Shown here: one piece after another, positions 1 through 14,147 of the stretch | Numbering within the stretch: the stretch's first letter is position 1 | Layout of the letters: every line of letters begins with the position of its first letter | Assembly: GCA_017542245.1 (NCBI GenBank) | Contig: JAFXXN010000107.1 | Span: 62,001-126,000, forward strand | DNA: 64,000 bases | Origin: Lachnospiraceae bacterium | Lineage (GTDB): Bacteria; Bacillota; Clostridia; Lachnospirales; Lachnospiraceae | Direction of reading: 5' to 3' | Notes under the pieces: model-generated | What the model was told of the DNA's origin: nothing | Seen by the model: only the letters and a program-made list of their open reading frames with translations | Databases searched by the model: none | Position numbers and translations under genes: made by a program

Positions 1-798
1 GTTATCAGCCTTGTTTCCCGCAAGTCTCGTACAATGAACTCTGCTCTGCTGACCTGCACCTACACCGATAGCCTGTCCGTCTGCTGCAAAGCATACAGAA
101 TTTGACTGGGTATACTTAAGAGTTATAAGGCTTATGATAAGATTAGTACGAGCCTCGTCTGTTAAGTCCTTATTCTCTGTAACGATATTATTTAAAAGTT
201 CGTTATCAATTTTAAAGTTATTTCTGCCCTGCTCAAATGTAACACCGAATACCTGTTTTTTCTCCTGTACCTCAGGGATATAGTTAGGATCGATCTTTAT
301 AACATTGTATCCACCCTTACGCTTACTCTTTAAGAGTTCAAGAGCTTCGTCGGTATAACCGGGAGCAATGATACCATCAGATACTTCACGCTTGATAATC
401 TTGGCTGTTGTAAGGTCGCAGACATCTGAAAGCGCGATAAAATCACCAAATGATGACATCCTGTCAGTTCCTCTGGCTCTGGCATAAGCACAAGCTAAAG
501 GCGAATCGTCCAAGCCTTCGATATCATCAGCAAAAACAGCCTTCTTTAACTTATCGCTCAGCTTGTTGCCTACAGCTGCGGAAGTAGGTGATACATGTTT
601 AAAAGATGTGGCGCAGCATTTTCCGGTAGCCTCTTTAAGCTCTTTTACAAGCTGCCATGAGTTAAATGCATCAAGGAAATTGATGTATCCGGGACGTCCG
701 TTAAGTATCTCGATAGGAAGCTCAGCACCGTTCTCCATATAGATTTCCGCAGGTTTCTGATTTGGGTTACATCCATACTTTAATTCAAATCTTGTCAT
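1..798 (-). CDS. AICAR transformylase, stand-alone type (3' end cut by window edge)
   Basis: Formyltransferase that adds a one-carbon unit from 10-formyl-THF to AICAR to make FAICAR, the penultimate step of IMP synthesis. 266 codons are visible from ATG at 798, preceded by AGGAGAT; the C-terminus lies outside the window. The protein opens directly with the KYGCNPNQ motif of the transformylase domain and has no MGS-like IMP cyclohydrolase domain in front, unlike bifunctional PurH. The catalytic Lys-His pair is in FKHVSP (K67, H68). It lies 59 bp downstream of purO on the same strand, so the two form a split version of PurH activity in one transcript. Family assignment is from motif recognition and is strong; the full length cannot be seen. 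Confidence 0.9.
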   Translation of the reverse strand, partial: MTRFELKYGCNPNQKPAEIYMENGAELPIEILNGRPGYINFLDAFNSWQLVKELKEATGKCCATSFKHVSPTSAAVGNKLSDKLKKAVFADDIEGLDDSPLACAYARARGTDRMSSFGDFIALSDVCDLTTAKIIKREVSDGIIAPGYTDEALELLKSKRKGGYNVIKIDPNYIPEVQEKKQVFGVTFEQGRNNFKIDNELLNNIVTENKDLTDEARTNLIISLITLKYTQSNSVCFAADGQAIGVGAGQQSRVHCTRLAGNKADN

Positions 799-857: not shown

Positions 858-1625
858 TTACACGTTCTTATTTATTATTCTGGTTTCCTTCTGTCCTGTA
901 GCCAGATCAATATATGCAACATACAGAGAAACCTTATTATTCTCATCAAGTCCGTTCCAGATAGTGTTTGTATATTCATCAATATCGTTTGGAACGAAGA
1001 CTCTCTCCGGCTCGCCGGTAAATGTAGGGATAGGATTTCCATCATGATTGTAAGTATGGATGAAATGTCCAAGACCTGCTACGGAATTATAATTAAACGT
1101 ATATCTGTTGCATGTACTTCCTTCTGCGTCAGCACTCTTTAAAATGCTCATCTTGTAAGTGAAATCATTTGCCTTAATGAAGCTCAGCATAGCACTGATA
1201 CGGGGTGTCCAATTAGGTCCGTCGGGCTCGAACTCACGAGCTGAAAGAGCAACTTCAAAAGCATAACTCATATCTACGACCTGAATGGGATTAAGAGCAA
1301 ATGTAGACTCCCACTTCTCTAATACCTTATATACGGTATCTGTCTGGTCACCGTTTGTAACTATCATATAATTCTTGAATTCACGAACAGGTGAATAGAT
1401 AACCAGTGAAGGATCCTCCAGCTTAGAAGGATCAAAAGGCTTGATGATAATGCCGTCAGGAGTTTCAATGAACACACGGTTTCTTGAGTTTGTACTCCTG
1501 CCCATGATAAAGTAAGCGGTCACTGCCTTCTTACTGTCCTCGCTCTTTCCAACTATGATACCACGTCCTACATAAGAGTTTCCTTTTACCAGCTCGTCAA
1601 ACTTCATAACATCATAAATGCTCAT
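858..1625 (-). CDS. purO: IMP cyclohydrolase, archaeal PurO type
   Basis: Closes FAICAR to IMP, the last step of purine synthesis. The 255-residue protein matches the PurO (IMP_cyclohyd) family rather than the PurH N-terminal domain: YVGRGIIVG at residues 18-26 and GRSTNSRNR at 42-50 are the family's N-terminal signatures. ATG at 1625 follows GGAAAGGA. Its partner transformylase is immediately downstream, so the operon supplies both halves of the reaction normally made by one bifunctional PurH. A sigma-A-like promoter (1701-1729) and a structured leader precede it. No purine riboswitch motif was recognised in the leader. Cytoplasmic. Confidence 0.88.
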   Translation of the reverse strand: MSIYDVMKFDELVKGNSYVGRGIIVGKSEDSKKAVTAYFIMGRSTNSRNRVFIETPDGIIIKPFDPSKLEDPSLVIYSPVREFKNYMIVTNGDQTDTVYKVLEKWESTFALNPIQVVDMSYAFEVALSAREFEPDGPNWTPRISAMLSFIKANDFTYKMSILKSADAEGSTCNRYTFNYNSVAGLGHFIHTYNHDGNPIPTFTGEPERVFVPNDIDEYTNTIWNGLDENNKVSLYVAYIDLATGQKETRIINKNV

Positions 1626-1640
1626 GCTCAGTCCTTTCCG

Positions 1641-1687
1641 TTTGGATACAGTTTTGTTTCGGCTTTTATAATCCGAATGTAATCCAA
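1641..1687 (-). promoter_or_regulatory. structured 5' leader of purO
   Basis: In the transcript, TTTGGATTAC pairs with GTATCCAAA (one bulged T) and encloses an inner TTCGG/CCGAA hairpin, all between the predicted start site and the ribosome-binding site. The pairing is read directly from sequence. A regulatory role is inference; it matches no riboswitch class I know. Confidence 0.4.
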
Positions 1688-1700
1688 AAACCTAACTTTC

Positions 1701-1729
1701 ATTTTAACAAGATATCACAAATAAATCAA
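1701..1729 (-). promoter_or_regulatory. sigma-A-like promoter of purO operon
   Basis: On the minus strand TTGATT, 17 bp, TAAAAT. Predicted start about 1694, giving a leader of about 70 nt before purO. Confidence 0.6.
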
Positions 1730-1784
1730 GTTATTTTTTCAGCCCATTCTACCGGATAAAATTTTAAAATCCAGCCCGGTAACT

Positions 1785-1828
1785 TATAAAAAGAAAAGGG
1801 AGATTTTTGAATTTCTTCAAAATCTCCC
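1785..1828 (-). terminator. intrinsic terminator of the DUF4430 gene
   Basis: GGGAGATTTT pairs with AAAAATCTCCC on the minus strand and is followed by TTTTCTTTTT, 10 bp past the stop codon at 1838. Confidence 0.85.
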
Positions 1829-1837
1829 ATAATATTA

Positions 1838-2740
1838 TCAATCAACTACTTTAACTTTGTATGTAATACCGGCATATTCTATTTTCTTAGGAATCTTTTT
1901 ATTTCCAACAGTAGCTTTTGATAAAGTTACCTTTCCCATCTTTCCTAAAAAACTGCCCTTCTTTATAACAGTATATTTAAGACCGTTTACAGTTATCTCT
2001 TCATCATATGAAGGTTTGATAAATACCAGTGCCGAAGGAGGAACAAGGTTTGCTTCCGCACTTGCAGCAGAAATAAGATAACTTCCCGAAACAGGAGGTA
2101 ATACTCCCTTTACAGTTCCGTTTTCATCGGTAACAAGTCCCGACTCAACACCGTTTATATAAATCATGGCATTTGCAACCGGTGTCTTTACAGGATTCCA
2201 ATTTTCGTCATAGCTGTATGAATAAAGAGTAACCTTGATTTTTTTATTCTTATTGCAGCCATATACACGAGCATCAAAAAATGCATAAGAATCTGAAAAA
2301 TATGTTGTATCACTGTAAATAAATGCATTTAAATAATCGCCTTCAGCTACGGGGTCTAAAAGACTCCATGCAGACATATCATTTAAATAGTAACCATAGG
2401 AGCCTCCGTTTTCAACTCCCCAGAGTTTTTTAAGTGATAATCCATCGTATCCTTCAATACTTTCAGCAGCAAAGCCTGCTTCTGCTCCGCCTTTATAATA
2501 CTTCTCATGAGCGCAGTAGAGAGCATCATAAATTGTTAATGCACCATCACTGTCAACATCTGTAACAGTTACTGACTGCTGTCTTACTACCATATTCTTG
2601 GTGCCGTCACAAATAGTAACATAAATATTCGCACCATCTGCAGCAGATGCACTAACACTGCCGGATAATCCGGTAAAACCAGTCACGATCATGGCCGCAA
2701 TCAGGATCATTGACAGAAATTTTAATTTAATCTTTTTCAT
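1838..2740 (-). CDS. secreted DUF4430 protein, probable cobamide-binding surface protein
   Basis: 300-residue exported protein. Residues 1-34 form a signal peptide (KKIK, hydrophobic core, SASA cleavage region). Residues about 36-150 resemble DUF4430, the domain related to the C-terminal domain of transcobalamin/intrinsic factor (TIYDALYCAH, a Gly/Tyr-rich GGSYGYYLND, then WSLLDPVAEGD). A carboxypeptidase-regulatory-like segment (about 185-245, NGVESGLVTDENGTV) and a BspA-like tail (IPKKIEYAGITYKVKVV) follow. The gene sits alone between its own riboswitch/promoter and its own terminator. Because a cobalamin riboswitch controls it, cobamide capture at the cell surface is a reasonable inference; binding is not shown by sequence alone. 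No membrane anchor or sortase motif is visible. Start ATG follows GGAGG with 7 nt spacing. Confidence 0.8.
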   Translation of the reverse strand: MKKIKLKFLSMILIAAMIVTGFTGLSGSVSASAADGANIYVTICDGTKNMVVRQQSVTVTDVDSDGALTIYDALYCAHEKYYKGGAEAGFAAESIEGYDGLSLKKLWGVENGGSYGYYLNDMSAWSLLDPVAEGDYLNAFIYSDTTYFSDSYAFFDARVYGCNKNKKIKVTLYSYSYDENWNPVKTPVANAMIYINGVESGLVTDENGTVKGVLPPVSGSYLISAASAEANLVPPSALVFIKPSYDEEITVNGLKYTVIKKGSFLGKMGKVTLSKATVGNKKIPKKIEYAGITYKVKVVD

Positions 2741-2844
2741 ATCATATCCTCCATCAGTTAGATTTGCAGTTGTATAAACAACTGTATATTTGGGCGGCTT
2801 CCTCTATTTTTCGAAAATCCGGCGCTCGCAGACGATCATATGAT

Positions 2845-3050
2845 CTAAAGGAAACACGGCTAAGTCTTCCGGCTCATAGCCTCAAGCCAAATATGTCTTA
2901 CCTTCTCAAAGCATTCACTTCAATGGTGTATAAAAACAGTCTGTTTGCGGCAGCATACTGTTCCGACAATCCGGCTGTAAACCCCAAATAGGTTTACGGA
3001 TTATTTACGGCGGCGTGCCCGCTCAGGTTTCTCACCTGATTCCTTACTCC
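2845..3050 (-). promoter_or_regulatory. cobalamin riboswitch
   Basis: The minus-strand leader carries the ordered conserved pieces of the B12 element: AAGGAATCAGGTG (near 3045-3033), then a GGTG-AGAAA-CCTGAG hairpin, GCGGGCACGCCGCCGTAAA (3022-3004), CCATTG (2926-2921), GAGAAGG (2908-2902) and the B12-box-like AGCCGGAAGACTTAGCCG (2874-2857). The spacing and order fit RF00174. Downstream to the ATG lie the palindrome GATCATATGATC and a CAGTTGT/ACAACTG hairpin without a T-run, so control is more likely translational than by an intrinsic terminator (inference). This region explains most of the 415-bp gap between the flanking genes. Confidence 0.85.
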
Positions 3051-3065
3051 GTTACCGCTCCATAG

Positions 3066-3094
3066 ATTATACTCTTTTATAACCTGTTTTGCAA
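3066..3094 (-). promoter_or_regulatory. sigma-A-like promoter of the riboswitch transcript
   Basis: Minus strand TTGCAA, 17 bp, TATAAT. Its predicted start at about 3059 lies just before the first conserved riboswitch block. Confidence 0.75.
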
Positions 3095-3155
3095 GGTTTT
3101 TATACTTAAAGAGTCCTATCCAAATTCCAAAATCATCGGAAAATGATAAACATGA

Positions 3156-4331
3156 TCACTGTTCATAGATAGGTTTTTGGATACGCTGTCTGGTTATCTC
3201 AACAAGGTTCAGCATAGTCATATCTATCAATTTTGCCGGTATATGGTCAAGTGCCAATACTTCCTTTATTTTTTTAAGCAGTTTCTTTTTATGCTCTTCC
3301 TCCTTCATATCAATAAAATCAACTATTATTATTCCGGAAAGATTTCTAAGTCTCAGCTGCCTGCCTATTTCTTCAGCCGCTTCGAGATTTACCTTAAAAA
3401 AGGTTTCCTCGGTATCCTCCCTGCCTGCAATCGCTTTTCCGGTATTAACATCTATAGATACCAGAGCTTCCGTAGGCTGAATAACAAGGTATGCTCCGGA
3501 ATCAAGCCATACTCTTTCATGAAGTGCATTTTGTAATTTACTTTCTATCCCATAAAGAGTAGAAAGGGATATCTGATCATCCCTGTAAAATTCCAGCTTC
3601 TTAAGCTCATCACCGGGACAAGTCATAAGATATCTCTTTATGTCTTCATATATCTCCGCATCATCTGTTTTTATGCTGCTTATTTCGGAAGAATACCCGT
3701 CCCTTATCTCACTTATGTATTGAGGAGGTGCTGTGTATAAAACCGAATAGCAGGTTCTGTGTATTCCGTTCTGTATAATTGTTTTATACTGTTCGATAAG
3801 TTTTTCAGCTTCCCCGGTCAAAATCTCACCAGAGATTCCCAAAGCATTTGTACGTATAATAAAACCATAATCTTCACCAAGATAAGGTTTCATAATCGTC
3901 TTTAATCTTTCTCGTTCCGCATTATCATCGATTTTTGCAGAAATTCCTATCGTATTTTTGCCGCGTACCATTATAATATATCTGCCCGACAGGTTTAAAT
4001 CGGTAGTGGCAAGACATGCTTTTGTTTTTGTAGCATCTTTTGCTATCTGCACTATCAACTCGTCTCCAATCCTGATTGCATGATTGCCGGAATCATTAAA
4101 AACAGGATTCTTATTCTCTTTCAGTGACAGATAGACGATTTCCTTACCGGCTATTTCCACAAAAGCCGCATTTATATTTTTTACTATATTTCGTACTTTT
4201 CCCAGATAGATATTTCCCACGCGGCCTTTTTCTTCGGTTTTATCCATTCTGATCGTAACAATCTCCCTGTCTTCAAAAAGCGACGTGATAATCTTGTCCT
4301 CTTTTCGTACTACAATTATAGAATTCCCCAT
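3156..4331 (-). CDS. rng: ribonuclease G/E family protein
   Basis: Endoribonuclease for rRNA maturation and mRNA decay. The 391-residue protein has the S1-like RNA-binding region (about 36-115, GNIYLGKVRNIV) and the catalytic core with both metal-binding acidic residues, D294 in SIDVNTGK and D338 in IIVDFIDM. It ends at ITRQRIQKP and lacks the CPxCxG zinc-link and small C-terminal domain found in E. coli RNase G (about 489 aa). It is last in the operon with the TIGR03960 and TIGR03936 genes, a common clostridial arrangement; the usual following rplU-rpmA genes are absent here. Cytoplasmic. Confidence 0.9.
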   Translation of the reverse strand: MGNSIIVVRKEDKIITSLFEDREIVTIRMDKTEEKGRVGNIYLGKVRNIVKNINAAFVEIAGKEIVYLSLKENKNPVFNDSGNHAIRIGDELIVQIAKDATKTKACLATTDLNLSGRYIIMVRGKNTIGISAKIDDNAERERLKTIMKPYLGEDYGFIIRTNALGISGEILTGEAEKLIEQYKTIIQNGIHRTCYSVLYTAPPQYISEIRDGYSSEISSIKTDDAEIYEDIKRYLMTCPGDELKKLEFYRDDQISLSTLYGIESKLQNALHERVWLDSGAYLVIQPTEALVSIDVNTGKAIAGREDTEETFFKVNLEAAEEIGRQLRLRNLSGIIIVDFIDMKEEEHKKKLLKKIKEVLALDHIPAKLIDMTMLNLVEITRQRIQKPIYEQ

Positions 4332-5229: not shown

Positions 5230-7092
5230 TTATTTGCTTTCAATACAAACACCTGTGTTCCAGGAATTGCACCCGCAGCCTCCGCAGCCTTCCCGACAGT
5301 TTTTTGTAATCTCTCCGCGTTCTGCCTTTTTATATTCTCTTTCAAGGAATTTCCGAGAGATACCCGTATCAATAAAATCCCACGGAAGAATTTCTGCAAT
5401 ATCACGTTCCCTTAAGGTATAAAAATCCATATCTATCCCGGATTTTTCAATAGCTTTCTCCCACTTTTCCATCTTAAAGAATTCAGTCCATGCATCAAAA
5501 ATACATCCTGACCGGTATGCCTCGAGGATAACCCTGCCTACACGTCTGTCACCTCTGGCAAGCAGTCCTTCAAGTATGGAAGTATTACTGTCATGCCAGT
5601 TATATTTTATGCTCTTATAATTATGTTCCTGCTTTAATGTATCCATTAACAGTGTTTTTCTTCTAATATATTCATCCGGTGAAATCTGAGCTGCCCACTG
5701 GAAAGGAGTAAACGGCTTCGGAACAAAATAGGATGTACTGATGGTGACCTGTACCTTTCCCTGACGCTCACTCTTTGGTACAGTATCATAATAAGCCATG
5801 GCTATTTTATCGGCAAGATGGGGAATTCCCTCTACATCAGTGTCCTGCTCAAACGGCTGTCCCAGCATAAAATAAAGTTTTACCTTATTCCATCCGGCTT
5901 TATATGCCTCACATGCACCTCCCAATATAGTTTCCTCATCCAGACCTTTGTTTATTATATCACGCATCCTCTTAGTTCCCGCTTCAGGCGCAAAAGTAAG
6001 ACTGCTCTTCCTTACATCCTGCACCCGGCTCATAACGTCAAGAGAAAATGCATCTATTCTAAGCGAAGGGAGTGAAATATTTATTTTTCTTTCCCCCATT
6101 TCTTTTATAAGAAAATCCATCAGTTCAGCAAGTTTTGTATAATCACTTGAACTTAAGGAACAAAGTGTTATCTCTTCATAACCTGTTGAATTTATCATGG
6201 CAAGCGCATATTTTTTAAGGAACTCCAAACTTCTCTCTCTGATAGGACGATATATCATTCCTGCCTGGCAAAAACGGCAGCCTCTTATACATCCTCTTTG
6301 TATTTCAAGTGCAACACGATCCTGCACAGCTCTTATATAAGGCACCACCGGTTTTTCAGGATACACGGTATCACTCATATCTGCTACAACCTGACGCCTT
6401 ATCTTTTCAGGTACACCTTCCGCAGGCTTAAAATATGCTATAGTGCCGTCTTCATTATATCCCACATCATAAAAAGCAGGTACATATAATCCTTCTATAT
6501 TGGCTGCTCTCTTTAAAAATTCTTCCCTTGTCTGGCCTTTTTTTCTGCTGTCCTTATAGGTCTCCATCAGAAGGTCATATACCGTTTCTCCTTCACCGAT
6601 ATAAAATATATCAAAAAAGTCAGCCAGCGGTTCGGGGTTATAAGTACAGGGGCCCCCACCGATCACGATCGGGCATTTCCATGTCCTGTCCTTTGCCATC
6701 AGTGGGATCTGAGACAGTTCCAAAATCTGTAACACATTAGTATAACACATTTCATACTGCAATGTTATTCCAAGAAAATCAAAATCCTTAATCGACTGTT
6801 GGCTTTCAAGAGCAAAAAGCGGTATCTTTTTTTCTCTCATAAGCTTATCAAGATCCGGCCATGGCGAATAAACTCTCTCGCAGAAAGTATCCGCTCTGCG
6901 GTTAAACAACTCGTACAGGATCTGGATTCCTATATGTGACATGCCAACCTCATAAACATCCGGAAAACACATACAGAACCGGATGTCAACAGATTCAGGC
7001 TCTTTCCAGACAGCGTTAACTTCATGTCCGATATAACGTGCAGATTTATCAACGCTCATTAATATTTCATCAGATAGTGCTAATTTTCTCAA
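5230..7092 (-). CDS. TIGR03960 B12-binding-domain radical SAM protein
   Basis: 620-residue radical SAM enzyme of unknown substrate. An N-terminal B12-binding-like Rossmann region (FPDVYEVGMSHIG, IVIGGGPCTYNPEPLADFFD) precedes the radical SAM core with the cluster cysteines in CIRGCRFC (C268, C272, C275, spacing 3 and 2). The C-terminus has a Cys-rich tail (CREGCGGCGCN ... GVC), as is usual for this family. I place the start at TTG 7092: GGAGG lies 8 nt upstream, and RKLALSDEIL is the conserved N-terminus; a start at 7107 would put the ribosome-binding site inside the gene. First gene of the TIGR03960-TIGR03936-rng operon. Confidence 0.88.
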   Translation of the reverse strand: MRKLALSDEILMSVDKSARYIGHEVNAVWKEPESVDIRFCMCFPDVYEVGMSHIGIQILYELFNRRADTFCERVYSPWPDLDKLMREKKIPLFALESQQSIKDFDFLGITLQYEMCYTNVLQILELSQIPLMAKDRTWKCPIVIGGGPCTYNPEPLADFFDIFYIGEGETVYDLLMETYKDSRKKGQTREEFLKRAANIEGLYVPAFYDVGYNEDGTIAYFKPAEGVPEKIRRQVVADMSDTVYPEKPVVPYIRAVQDRVALEIQRGCIRGCRFCQAGMIYRPIRERSLEFLKKYALAMINSTGYEEITLCSLSSSDYTKLAELMDFLIKEMGERKINISLPSLRIDAFSLDVMSRVQDVRKSSLTFAPEAGTKRMRDIINKGLDEETILGGACEAYKAGWNKVKLYFMLGQPFEQDTDVEGIPHLADKIAMAYYDTVPKSERQGKVQVTISTSYFVPKPFTPFQWAAQISPDEYIRRKTLLMDTLKQEHNYKSIKYNWHDSNTSILEGLLARGDRRVGRVILEAYRSGCIFDAWTEFFKMEKWEKAIEKSGIDMDFYTLRERDIAEILPWDFIDTGISRKFLEREYKKAERGEITKNCREGCGGCGCNSWNTGVCIESK

Positions 7093-7106
7093 AGCTTCTT
7101 CCTCCA

Positions 7107-7147
7107 AAATAAGAGCTATGGACTCTATTTTCTCTATCCATAGCCCT
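7107..7147 (-). terminator. terminator-like hairpin between mcp and the radical SAM operon
   Basis: Minus strand AGGGCTATGGA pairs with TCCATAGCTCT, followed by TATTTT, and runs directly into the GGAGG of the next gene. It may end the mcp transcript or attenuate the operon. Confidence 0.6.
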
Positions 7148-7199
7148 GATATTCCGATTCAAATATCTTAATCCGTTACAGGTCCGCCTTTGGTACCTA

Positions 7200-8897
7200 T
7201 TATTCAATATTAAATGCTGACATTGTAAGGTCAAGCCTTTCTGACATCTCTGACAGACTAAGTGCCGCTGCAGAAACTTTGTTAACTACATTTCCTACCC
7301 TGTCCATGCTTGCAGATGTCTCTTCTGTTCCCAATGCGTTCTTATCTGCCACGTCCGAAAGATTCTTAAGAGCTTCCTCAACTGCATTTCGTGCTTCTTC
7401 AAGAGCATTTACATCGTCTGATATCTTCTCGGATGTTTCAACGGTGATATTAATGTTATCTTCCAGTTCATTAAAAATACTAACTGTCCTGTCAACATTT
7501 TCATTTTGCCTTACGATTATCTCCCGAACATTGTCCATGGTTTCAACAGCATTATTGGAGTCTTTCATGAGCGAAACTATTATGCTCTGGATAGTATGCG
7601 CGGAATTATTGGTCTGTTCCGACAGCGCAGATATCTCAGATGCAACAACCGCAAATCCCTGTCCCGCTTCTCCGGCGCGGGCTGCTTCTATGGAAGCATT
7701 AAGAGATAAAAGATTTGTCTGATTTGCTATGTCTGATATAAGATTGACAGCTTCTTCAATAGACTTGGCTGAACTGTTGGTCTTGTTTGTCTGTTCAAAA
7801 ATTACTTTTATCGCTGTGTCGACTTCTTCATTGATTGCTTTTAATTCATCAAGTATCTCAAGAGCTCTTTCACTCTTTTCCTTCATTACTTCAGAATTTT
7901 TATCAAGACGCTTCACTTCATGTGCCGTATCGTTAATGGCATTACTCATTACATCAACCTGTTCCGAAGCCATTCCGGTATCTTTTGCCTGTAATGATGT
8001 CGCCTGATTTATTGAACTGACAGAATTCTTTATGGATTTTATGGCAACATTACTGTCCATAGATACTTTCTTCAGATTAGCAGATGCTTCACCCAGTTCA
8101 TCGGTACAGTGTTTCGCCTCAGACACTATATCCTTTAACGTGGAAGCAAGTTTCATATTCGACTTGCCGAGCATCCCCAGTTCATCCTGACGTTGCAGGG
8201 TGGCATTATCTATCACTATATCAAGATCGCCTGAAGTAAGCTTGTCTGCTGCGCGGTTACATGAAACAACTGCAGATGTTATGGAAGAAGATGTACGATA
8301 CGAATAAATGATCGCCAATACAACAAATATAACCACAGTACCTAACGTGATCCATACAATTACAAACATTCTTGATTTTGCTTCGCTTATAGGTATTCCG
8401 ACAAATAACATACTGTTTATCACATCTGAACCCGACTGCTTCAAAGGTACGTAAAAGCCATAATACTCTGTCCCGCCATATTCCACTTTACTTTCAAAAT
8501 AGGAACCTTTAAAGCTGATTACTTCATCCACGATATCGCCAGCTGCCGCAAGATCTTTCAGCCTGTTTCCTTCGTTATCTTTTATAGTAGTCGCATAACC
8601 TGTTGGACCATAGAAAACAATCGAGTCCACATTAGAATCTCTCTTTACGGACTCAAGGATTTCAACGCCATCTGAAAGATCAAGCTCACCCTTATAAATA
8701 TGACCTTTTAACACCTTATAGTCACCTTCTATCATATTTAAGGCACCTGCTAATGAATATGCTGTCGATTTTAATCCCATTTCAGTATTATGCCTTGTAA
8801 GCATAGGAAATTCACCCACTATTATTCCTGCTATAATTATTATAACAAGGAGCATGGGTATCAAAGTCATAAGCATAAGCCTCATCTTTAATTTCAT
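7200..8897 (-). CDS. methyl-accepting chemotaxis protein
   Basis: Transmembrane chemoreceptor. TM1 at about residues 8-30, an extracytoplasmic sensor region of about 150 residues with a Cache-like look ([15 protein letters not shown], then YYGFYVPL), TM2 at about 178-200, a HAMP-like linker, and a long helical signalling domain. The signalling tip is intact: [19 protein letters not shown] followed by GFAVVA, the contact site for CheA/CheW. ATG at 8897 has AGGAGG 9 nt upstream; an ATG two codons earlier (8903) is only 3 nt from it. No che or flagellar genes are in the window. The ligand is unknown. Confidence 0.93.
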
Positions 8898-13100: not shown

Positions 13101-14147
13101 TTTCGAAGAAGCTATATCTCCTCTGAAAACTCTCCACTGAAGGTTATCTGCAAACAGGGCATTTGTCTGAAATACTATAGTGGAATCTTCCCATTTCACA
13201 TAGGGATCCGGGCTTGAAGTACAATGGCTTTCCTCATTATAACCGCTTATGTAAGCTTCAGGGACTACAACTACATCATAGCTTAATGTTTCACCTTCAC
13301 CGGTCTTTTCATTTTTGGTAAGGGTTCTTACAGAAATAGTGGTAAAACCTGCAGTTTTAGCCGTAACCATACCTGTAAGGGAATCCACTTCCGCAACAGA
13401 AGGATTAGAACTGGTCCACTCAAGAGCGGCAGTAAAAGAACCAAGCTTTTGAGGATCTATATCACTATATACACTTTCCAGCGTAGTTTCATCAACTTCG
13501 GTAGCCGGATCATCTGTTTTATATGAATATCTTGCATATTTCAGCTTTCTTATGTAGTGAGATGCTTCCGGATGGTCCGCAGAACTAACCGTATACATCT
13601 GAAGGGTATACTGATTTTTATCAGCTTCAGAGCTGCTGTCTCCGTCCTGTGCATATATCAAGCCGTAATATCCGTTATTCTCTGTACCCAGAAGATTATT
13701 CAGAATTTTCTTGTCCGGATTGCTTTCCACATTATCAGACCACTGAAGAGGAACATAAACAGAACAATATGCTGCAGCTGTATATATATTTCCTCCGGTC
13801 TCTATATCAACGGAAAGTCCTGAAAAACCCGGAGAGATAATATCAAGGGTAACATTTCCTGCATTATCCTGTTCTTTTATCTTTACAATGCTCTCATTGC
13901 TGACGCCCCATGTAAATTTTGTTCCTGACGGTAATCCCTCAGAATATTGAAGTTTTATCGTAATCGGGCTGCTTTCACCGTTAGTTGATGAATATTCAAT
14001 AATTCCACCACTCTCTATAGGCTTGTTACCTATAAGAAAGCTGAATACACCCTCTAAAGAATCTGCTTTTGTTACTCCGGAATGTGAAATTCCGACAAAA
14101 ATCATAGTCAGGGCTAAAACCATTATTATCCGGGAAATTTTTTTCAT
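10110..14147 (-). CDS. large secreted Big2-domain surface protein
   Basis: 1345-residue exported protein. The signal peptide starts MKKISRIIMVLALTM, and ATG at 14147 has GGAGGT upstream; longer in-frame starts run through the leader and terminator and are rejected. At least eleven Big2 (bacterial Ig-like group 2) repeats are visible, each with a core like W-T-S-S/D-x-x-x-V-A-x-V followed by G-x-V-x-A-x-x-x-G; examples are LEWTSSNPSVAEVD, VKWTSTDTKVATVD and FGWSSDNPVVATVN. There is no LPxTG, SLH or choline-binding motif and no enzymatic domain, so surface retention would be by an unknown route. Probable adhesin or wall-associated scaffold (inference). Confidence 0.88.
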   Translation of the reverse strand: MKKISRIIMVLALTMIFVGISHSGVTKADSLEGVFSFLIGNKPIESGGIIEYSSTNGESSPITIKLQYSEGLPSGTKFTWGVSNESIVKIKEQDNAGNVTLDIISPGFSGLSVDIETGGNIYTAAAYCSVYVPLQWSDNVESNPDKKILNNLLGTENNGYYGLIYAQDGDSSSEADKNQYTLQMYTVSSADHPEASHYIRKLKYARYSYKTDDPATEVDETTLESVYSDIDPQKLGSFTAALEWTSSNPSVAEVDSLTGMVTAKTAGFTTISVRTLTKNEKTGEGETLSYDVVVVPEAYISGYNEESHCTSSPDPYVKWEDSTIVFQTNALFADNLQWRVFRGDIASSKTEITDEIKADIQPSDANGRMVLKNLKAGVYYVTAVPIKGSETATSTPAYDVTKKKDLMALEYVIVVPVKFPSGDVTLCYYNSSIYDTYDLLENSNFPEGLFKFAVVSGGENVISVDSTTGVIGAVGEGSAKVSITLKDLTFFDELFGSYATKPEIIGIDKTAGTDKKINVTVYDGIAISTTSATMTLGSEFKLSLTAPSPYQGDISWTSADESICTVDENGLVKALKVGDTTITVKIVVGSGVTKRAQCSIKVVASVSSITLSAVSDHIGIDESLTITADISPVVQGTSLKWTSSDTSVAAITTTSDLSIIIKGIKGGTTIITAVNPDNGVIGTMMIHVISNITSITLSDHEVTLPKSAGFYQLYAKCEPELPENEKLIWKSSDEKVIKVDQNGKVSIVKPGTADINVLTSNGKMDSCKFTILQGMESITLDEKSLTMFVGDTYRMAYTIKPDNVSDKTLKWSSTDAKVVTVDSTGFFTAKNTGTCVITAQAQDGSGIFATCTVTVLRNATGITMDVKELTLGVGETYLLEVELKPADSTDTVKFESNNTKVATVSATGKVTAKAKGTCVIFARTDAGISVSCNVTVTQQVTGITVSPASASVNAGETLQLTASITPKNATDQEVKWTSTDTKVATVDSKGLVKAQKGGFAIIKCVSEDGDYMSYSLITVVEKVTTITVNESVEIGVGKKLKLTAVVSGETATNKNVKWASSNKKVVKVSKKGVILGVKAGTARIRVKATDGSGVYADCEVKVITATENIDLSANYVDLLQGEHVKIKATTTPKKVTYPLVWTSDNEKVAVVNKKGKITAIKAGDCIIKCAAKDNPNVYELCYVHVTAPVSISSITLAESSIIMVPGESSSVQYSISPANYTESFGWSSDNPVVATVNSNGRITAKSVGTATITVMSKSGKKSTISVYVVGLSKTKITLHQYESTKINLQLDGVGTNKLDVRWDTDNQSIADISNGKVTGRACGTTTVYCIVNGRALACTVKVIKN

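Follow-up and report, generated by a model that had tools for sequence, protein, structure and literature searches.

In the present study, we found that a 64,000-nucleotide stretch (hereafter the window) from the genome of a Lachnospiraceae bacterium akin to those of the rumen carries on its minus strand a compact unit, spanning 1798-3094, in which a promoter-like site, a cobalamin riboswitch, a gene for an exported protein and a terminator-like hairpin follow one another. Relatives of the secreted protein are often encoded beside intrinsic-factor-like proteins and a B12-type importer, so that a part in the extracellular capture of B12 by Gram-positive gut bacteria is probable. More precisely, sequence comparison makes it quite probable that the gene encodes a corrinoid-repressed extracellular corrinoid-capture protein that feeds a CbrT-type ECF importer. 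The members of the family are candidate extracellular B12 binders that lend themselves to direct tests, and they hint that the beta domain of the vertebrate B12 carriers has working bacterial cousins. Loci, genomes and contigs are designated below by L, G and C numbers, respectively; G000 is the genome from which the window comes (its own genome).

The gene behind a cobalamin riboswitch in the window

The cobalamin riboswitch aptamer (RF00174) was matched at 2841-3071(-) over the full-length model (positions 1-189) with 37.9 bits, above the gathering score of 31.5 (E 4.8e-6), and the B12-type riboswitch proposed in a first-pass annotation is accordingly a member of this family. With 91 of 91 candidates scored, no second RF00174 match emerged in the 4.7-Mb genome. 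Its sequence and fold are kept in L028-L032, and the six related leaders align closely over the aptamer core and past its limits. The consensus fold of this six-leader alignment has 70 predicted pairs, of which 17 are kept via both-sided changes in at least one sequence, and a covarying helix lies downstream of the aptamer. The leader from the aptamer to the start codon (2741-2840(-)) contains a conserved hairpin, which is a candidate expression platform, and the Shine-Dalgarno sequence GGAGG (2748-2752(-)). Folded alone, the window leader was not unusually stable (z -1.36), and the fold gave no decisive expression platform. A consensus scan of 1600-3200 listed no terminator-like site on the gene strand between the aptamer and the start codon; thus, translational control is the likelier mode of the riboswitch.

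The gene itself is a single open reading frame of 300 amino acids at 1838-2740(-), including the stop codon, and is monocistronic in the window. A hydropathy scan revealed a hydrophobic N-terminus, in agreement with the export claimed before; the putative signal peptide covers approximately residues 1-34 (2639-2740(-)), with the cleavage site placed by inspection. The promoter previously read as TTGCAA-17-TATAAT is present at 3066-3094(-), where it agrees with 10 of 12 consensus positions and lies just upstream of the conserved aptamer start in the six aligned leaders. However, sites of this type are no commoner than chance in 1600-3200 (7 found against a shuffle mean of 5.9), and the site is weak evidence when taken alone. 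At the other end of the unit, a hairpin with a U-rich tail at 1798-1828(-) (-15.7 kcal/mol, z -3.37; one of 200 shuffles as good) agrees with the terminator assigned earlier. This hairpin was absent from the consensus terminator scan of 1600-3200, and thus the terminator reading rests on its fold and sequence.

The adjoining genes are ordinary neighbours, namely one for an IMP-cyclohydrolase-like protein at 858-1625(-) (PF07826, E 5.8e-58) and, next to it, a frame at 1-798(-) that runs off the start of the window. A gene at 5230-7107(-), the product of which we take to be a Radical-SAM-like protein, has a weak match to a B12-binding domain (G000:C179:68577-68789, E 9.2e-4, below the cut-off). 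The content of the window agrees with the previous remark that no BtuFCD partner is encoded nearby.

A domain family remotely related to DUF4430

DUF4430 (PF14478) is the beta domain of transcobalamin, intrinsic factor and haptocorrin; intrinsic factor and transcobalamin combine an alpha/alpha toroid with this beta domain in one chain. The first-pass annotation named the window protein a DUF4430 protein, and this identity fails at the level of single-profile searches, where the outcome is the one that the annotation had named as refuting it: hmmscan against Pfam at E<=1 gave no match to PF14478 (cut-off 23.8 bits), the sole match at that threshold being CarbopepD_reg_2 (E 0.22), a scan of NCBIfam found neither DUF4430 nor an informative family, and phmmer against PDB found no match for the protein. 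What stands is a remote homology. The protein contains, at 2273-2632(-), a domain of a new family (family-profile match E 3e-46), of which one of 25 members matched PF14478, at E 0.036. When the profile of this domain was compared with a DUF4430 profile by hhalign, a score of 31.9 (probability 78) was obtained, against 17.8 for the best of 400 column shuffles (one invalid) and 12 for reversed profiles; the alignment is co-linear between columns 3 and 75 of 79 and covers 65 columns, indicating remote homology over the whole domain. The former profile was built from 25 of 30 extracted domains (L031, L049, both L033 copies and L026 were left out), and the latter from 22 genuine domains of 30 DUF4430 loci (without L074-L081). 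Because the kinship is seen by profile-profile comparison and not by Pfam, we place the window domain, on these alignments, in an unnamed family with remote kinship to the beta domain of transcobalamin. Against PDB, the DUF4430 profile in turn matched transcobalamin-1 (E 1.9e-4) and transcobalamin-2 (E 0.0049), with intrinsic factor reached at no better than 0.69; the top hit was 3u7z, a structural-genomics DUF4430 entry named putative metal binding protein. In the corresponding search with the new domain profile, the best 60 of 111 matches were mostly G-protein alpha chains, at E 0.012 at best and with no stretch that passed alone, and these were taken as chance.

Two features of the domain are shared by many of its members. 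The histidine at position 78 of the window protein (codon 2507-2509(-)) is near-invariant, being kept in 51 of 53 distinct domain rows. An EF-hand-like DxDxDG loop occupies residues 61-66, and in 35 of 54 rows the domain contains, at one position or another, a motif of the form [DN]x[DN]x[DN]G.

The remainder of the protein is less easily assigned. The Ig-like segment suggested earlier corresponds to an Ig- or carboxypeptidase-regulatory-like segment at 2006-2263(-), to which the CarbopepD_reg_2 match belongs; this support is weak, and it is better in the relative L043 (CarbopepD_reg_2 9e-6; CarboxypepD_reg 4.8e-7, the latter still below the curated cut-off). A BspA-like segment had been claimed as well, and here the annotation found no support, the last 55 residues having no match to any Pfam family at E<=1. 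They form a basic C-terminal segment (1841-2005(-)) that is common to L028, L029, L030 and L032 in the alignment, with L031 cut by the contig end. Since the window protein shows neither a sortase-like tail nor an SLH-like segment, it may be released, or may be retained by the basic segment.

Within the taxonomic family, 24 of 397 genomes contained a match, the own genome and a probable false hit included, as did 47 of 291 genomes at the class level, the own genome again included. Furthermore, six named MAG loci were matched, five labelled Lachnospiraceae and one Ruminococcus; two of the titles refer to buffalo rumen and goat omasum. The hit in G353 (E 4.9e-4) is probably false because it does not match the family profile; G353 was kept as a miss among the 52 genomes or loci counted below for riboswitches and excluded from the 48 counted for neighbouring genes. 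Because the search was built on it, the DUF4430-like family domain is present in all architectures. It is fused to PQQ_2-type beta-propellers in L038 (G175), L046 (G378) and L024 (G181) and to toroid-like regions in L035, L037, L050 and L023, only that of L037 scoring above the Pfam cut-off. Sortase-like tails are found in L034, L036, L038, L039 and L086 (L034 alone above the Pfam cut-off), and several class-level relatives end in SLH-like segments as judged by eye.

Linkage to cobalamin riboswitches and putative corrinoid uptake genes

Of 52 genomes or loci, 33 have a cobalamin riboswitch ahead of the family gene or of the operon that contains it. A case was counted when the riboswitch lay on the strand of the gene no more than 800 nt upstream of the frame or, alternatively, when it headed an unbroken same-strand row of uptake genes including the family gene. 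The 33 cases are made up of 10 of the 24 genomes of the taxonomic family, 5 of the 6 named MAG loci and 18 of 22 class-level loci; the Rfam scan at the class level covered 20 of the 29 loci outside the own genome and then six longer stretches, which added two genomes. Among the ten family genomes, the riboswitch directly precedes the gene in nine (G000, G330, G157, G229, G275, G071, G279, G030 and G169) and stands at the head of the gene row in G139. The riboswitch of G279 is RF01689, not RF00174; among the candidates scored, this class was above the cut-off in that genome only of the 24 and gave no match in the own genome. G330, G275 and G071 have one RF00174 each among the candidates scored, and in each it is located before the family gene. 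In five of the 33 cases, 430-726 nt with short frames separate the riboswitch from the gene. By our own arithmetic, based on 38 riboswitches in about 68 Mb among the candidates scored, a random gene would have a riboswitch within 800 nt upstream in approximately 2 of 10,000 cases. In the comparison group of canonical DUF4430 loci, the riboswitch was found in 2 of 20; this group is 20 of the 30 DUF4430 loci, with stretches of approximately 3 kb (1.9 to 3.2 kb), a length that could have hidden a riboswitch ahead of a long gene. Short canonical DUF4430 proteins in L067 and L069 (frames of 147 and 159 aa) have a cobalamin riboswitch upstream, and thus a resemblance to B12 proteins extends to some true members of DUF4430.

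Cobalamin control of the family is not universal. Among the candidates scored, RF00174 was not matched in eleven of the 24 family genomes, and ten of them (G134, G039, G175, G181, G189, G211, G245, G285, G378 and G395), including those with the five closest homologues (G245, G285, G039, G134 and G189), also have no RF01689 above the cut-off. The 19 misses are these ten together with G353, G027, G159, G261, L033 (a named locus) and the class-level genomes G409, G445, G501 and G508. In G159 and G508 the contig breaks off at the gene or shortly ahead of it, and in G027 about 600 nt of upstream sequence are visible. G261 was counted as a miss since five other genes and an opposite-strand frame separate its riboswitch-headed row from the family gene; in this row (L087, G261:C10:414000-432000), a riboswitch at 13521-13643(-) heads genes for DUF4430, EcfT, EcfA and EcfS. 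In L085 (G169:C66), three very large consecutive frames with DUF4430-like domains each lie behind a cobalamin riboswitch, and two of the three also carry the new-family domain.

The neighbouring genes indicate a second recurrent linkage. Toroid (intrinsic-factor-like) or DUF4430 segments occur in the same stretch or frame in 40 of the 48 genomes or loci with the domain, and EcfT in the same stretch in 25 of 48; these counts take in the neighbouring stretch L084 for G030 and L087 for G261, where EcfT lies approximately 10 kb from the family gene. The eight without toroid or DUF4430 nearby are the window, L031, L032, L033, G229, G159, G275 and G027; of these, L031, G159 and G275 have their family gene at a contig end. 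In L028-L030 the order is riboswitch, family protein, toroid/DUF4430 protein, EcfT and EcfA, with EcfS also in L028; L043 has the same order, with AdoCbl-II and EcfS. The intrinsic-factor-like neighbours have a toroid-like region, a pair of adjacent transmembrane stretches and, at the C-terminus, DUF4430; in an alignment of ten, the pair is present in all and a hydrophobic N-terminus in eight. Downstream of their genes lie those for an EcfT of the CbiQ family and a double-ATPase EcfA, often with one for an S component as well. The toroid-like part matched the Pfam families Prenyltrans or squalene-cyclase, below the curated cut-offs in the ten neighbour proteins scanned, and in PDB at E<=0.1 its profile matched squalene cyclases, with no specific match to intrinsic factor found; the likeness to intrinsic factor therefore rests on the architecture and the DUF4430 half. 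In L032, a riboswitch-controlled gene (7045-8031) is followed in the available sequence by neither intrinsic-factor-like nor ECF genes, as in the window, and thus a gene standing alone in this way may not be peculiar to the window.

A profile of nine linked S components, including that on C46 of the own genome, matched 6fnp chain A best in PDB (E 1.6e-15), followed by a riboflavin uptake protein at 0.0057. The kinship with CbrT concerns these linked genes and not the window protein. Judging from its size and the match, chain A would be the CbrT chain of this entry, the PDB label of which reads only 'Membrane protein'. 6FNP is the deposition of ECF-CbrT, for which transport of cobalamin and cobinamide is reported in the available part of PMC5997447.

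In the own genome, the corresponding parts are dispersed over three contigs: the window gene and its riboswitch are on C179, the genes for the intrinsic-factor-like protein, EcfT and EcfA on C146 (L083), and the S-component gene on C46 (L128), its product being 80% identical to that of L028. No riboswitch was detected on C146 or C46. The likely partner of the window protein, as judged from these genes, is the ECF transporter encoded on the other contigs (L083 and L128). The contamination of this MAG is 8.6%. The composition of both contigs is close to that of the window, with correlations of 0.955 for C146 and 0.901 for C46, against 0.50-0.87 for other genomes and 0.937-0.973 for chunks of the window, which are part of the reference; this speaks against contamination in the case of C146, and moderately so in the case of C46. 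The genome also encodes three FecCD permeases, so that the ECF system need not be the sole uptake route, and has three matches to the B12-binding domain, one of them above the cut-off (a strong match in an 883-aa frame). A Clostridiales-1 RNA (RF01699) at L128:1786-1952 lies a few kb before the S-component gene, and another is found beside a DUF4430 gene in L071.

Proposed function and comparison with known systems

We propose the following scheme. When intracellular corrinoid is low, the riboswitch would permit expression, and the exported protein would capture a corrinoid (B12 or cobinamide) outside the cell by its DUF4430-related domain. The corrinoid might then be handed to the membrane-anchored intrinsic-factor-like protein, with its toroid-like region, two transmembrane stretches and DUF4430, and pass from there to the dedicated CbrT-like ECF transporter for import. 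When corrinoid is plentiful, the aptamer would bind it and expression would fall. The three dispersed loci of the own genome would work together in this manner. Scavenging of corrinoids at the Gram-positive surface, as the first-pass annotation had it, gains comparative support from the riboswitches, the linkage to intrinsic-factor-like and DUF4430 proteins and the CbrT-like ECF genes, but the DUF4430 label on which it was based holds only as a remote one; taken together, the earlier observation is partly confirmed and its interpretation partly supported. A broader possibility, to which we give somewhat less than even credence, is that the mammalian intrinsic-factor system has a bacterial counterpart in Clostridia. 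Secreted carriers with DUF4430-like domains of the new family, some of them fused to beta-propellers or toroid-like regions, would take up corrinoids and deliver them to a membrane-anchored intrinsic-factor-like receptor, in which a transmembrane hairpin joins toroid and DUF4430, docked on a CbrT-type ECF importer, and His78 would be a candidate cobalt ligand.

Among other explanations, the window protein could be a riboswitch-regulated structural or docking partner, with a domain that has for its target not a corrinoid but the intrinsic-factor-like protein, the ECF complex or the cell wall. The sortase-like, SLH-like or Ig-like surface modules of relatives would suit such a role, the domain has diverged past recognition by Pfam, and in the 40 of 48 cases mentioned above a toroid or DUF4430 segment able to bind is near or fused. 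Nevertheless, we regard this as unlikely, because it is this domain that all architectures share (as the search was constructed), with the one histidine kept almost throughout, and because it is often fused in one chain to the very DUF4430 or toroid segments. A far less probable role is that of an adhesin, or of another surface protein, for which corrinoid is merely an environmental cue governing expression. The protein is indeed secreted and modular, has an Ig-like segment and is encoded monocistronically in the window, and the FecCD genes of the own genome could serve uptake; however, in many relatives the genes of a CbrT-like ECF transporter stand in one row with that of the family protein.

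The least probable of the readings considered is that cobalt ions or another metabolite, and not an intact corrinoid, are bound. It is suggested by the match of the EcfT proteins scanned to the CbiQ (cobalt transport) Pfam family, by the EF-hand-like motif in 35 of 54 copies and by the name of 3u7z, the best PDB match of canonical DUF4430. However, the CbiQ family also includes the EcfT subunits of vitamin transporters, the S-component profile fits 6FNP far better than the other S components in the PDB search, and the ten neighbour proteins scanned had no Pfam match to CbiM or CbiN. Among these readings, we prefer corrinoid capture.

In the literature searched, DUF4430 and a cobalamin riboswitch were not found together, and the arrangement of an extracellular protein with an ECF transporter for corrinoids is unreported in the titles and abstract openings of the papers listed. 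The available parts of PMC9600662, PMC3766115, PMC2667541, PMC8123684, PMC7478625, PMC6977713 and PMC13398666 do not mention the extracellular family; DUF4430 is mentioned in the accessible part of a paper on vertebrate B12 carriers (PMC4350170). As for the riboswitch, RF00174 here controls a secreted protein of an unnamed family and, in the window, that gene alone and not transporter genes. The family-linked S component is a relative (E 1.6e-15) of that of the B12/cobinamide transporter ECF-CbrT of Lactobacillus delbrueckii (6FNP), but here EcfT and a double-ATPase EcfA accompany the S component along with extracellular proteins; CbrUVT is listed as a B12 transporter in the available part of PMC6593275, where no extracellular partner is named.

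BtuG and BtuH of Bacteroides are surface-exposed B12-binding lipoproteins. If our reading is correct, the window protein would resemble them as an extracellular capture protein aiding an importer, although the domain is unrelated, the cell is Gram-positive, and an ECF transporter takes the place of BtuB/BtuFCD. The available text of PMC6977713 describes BtuG2 as a beta-propeller, and three relatives (L038, L046 and L024) fuse the family domain to a PQQ-type beta-propeller, whereas the window protein has no Pfam match to one at E<=1. With the transcobalamin beta domain, the window domain shares the co-linear profile alignment of 65 columns, through the DUF4430 profile that matches transcobalamin-1 and -2; it differs from canonical DUF4430 in lying below Pfam detection, and its family often has the EF-hand-like loop and longer insertions. 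Compared with intrinsic factor and transcobalamin, the window protein is a separate secreted protein without a toroid match, whereas the linked intrinsic-factor-like proteins of the relatives combine a toroid-like region (under the cut-off) with two transmembrane stretches and DUF4430.
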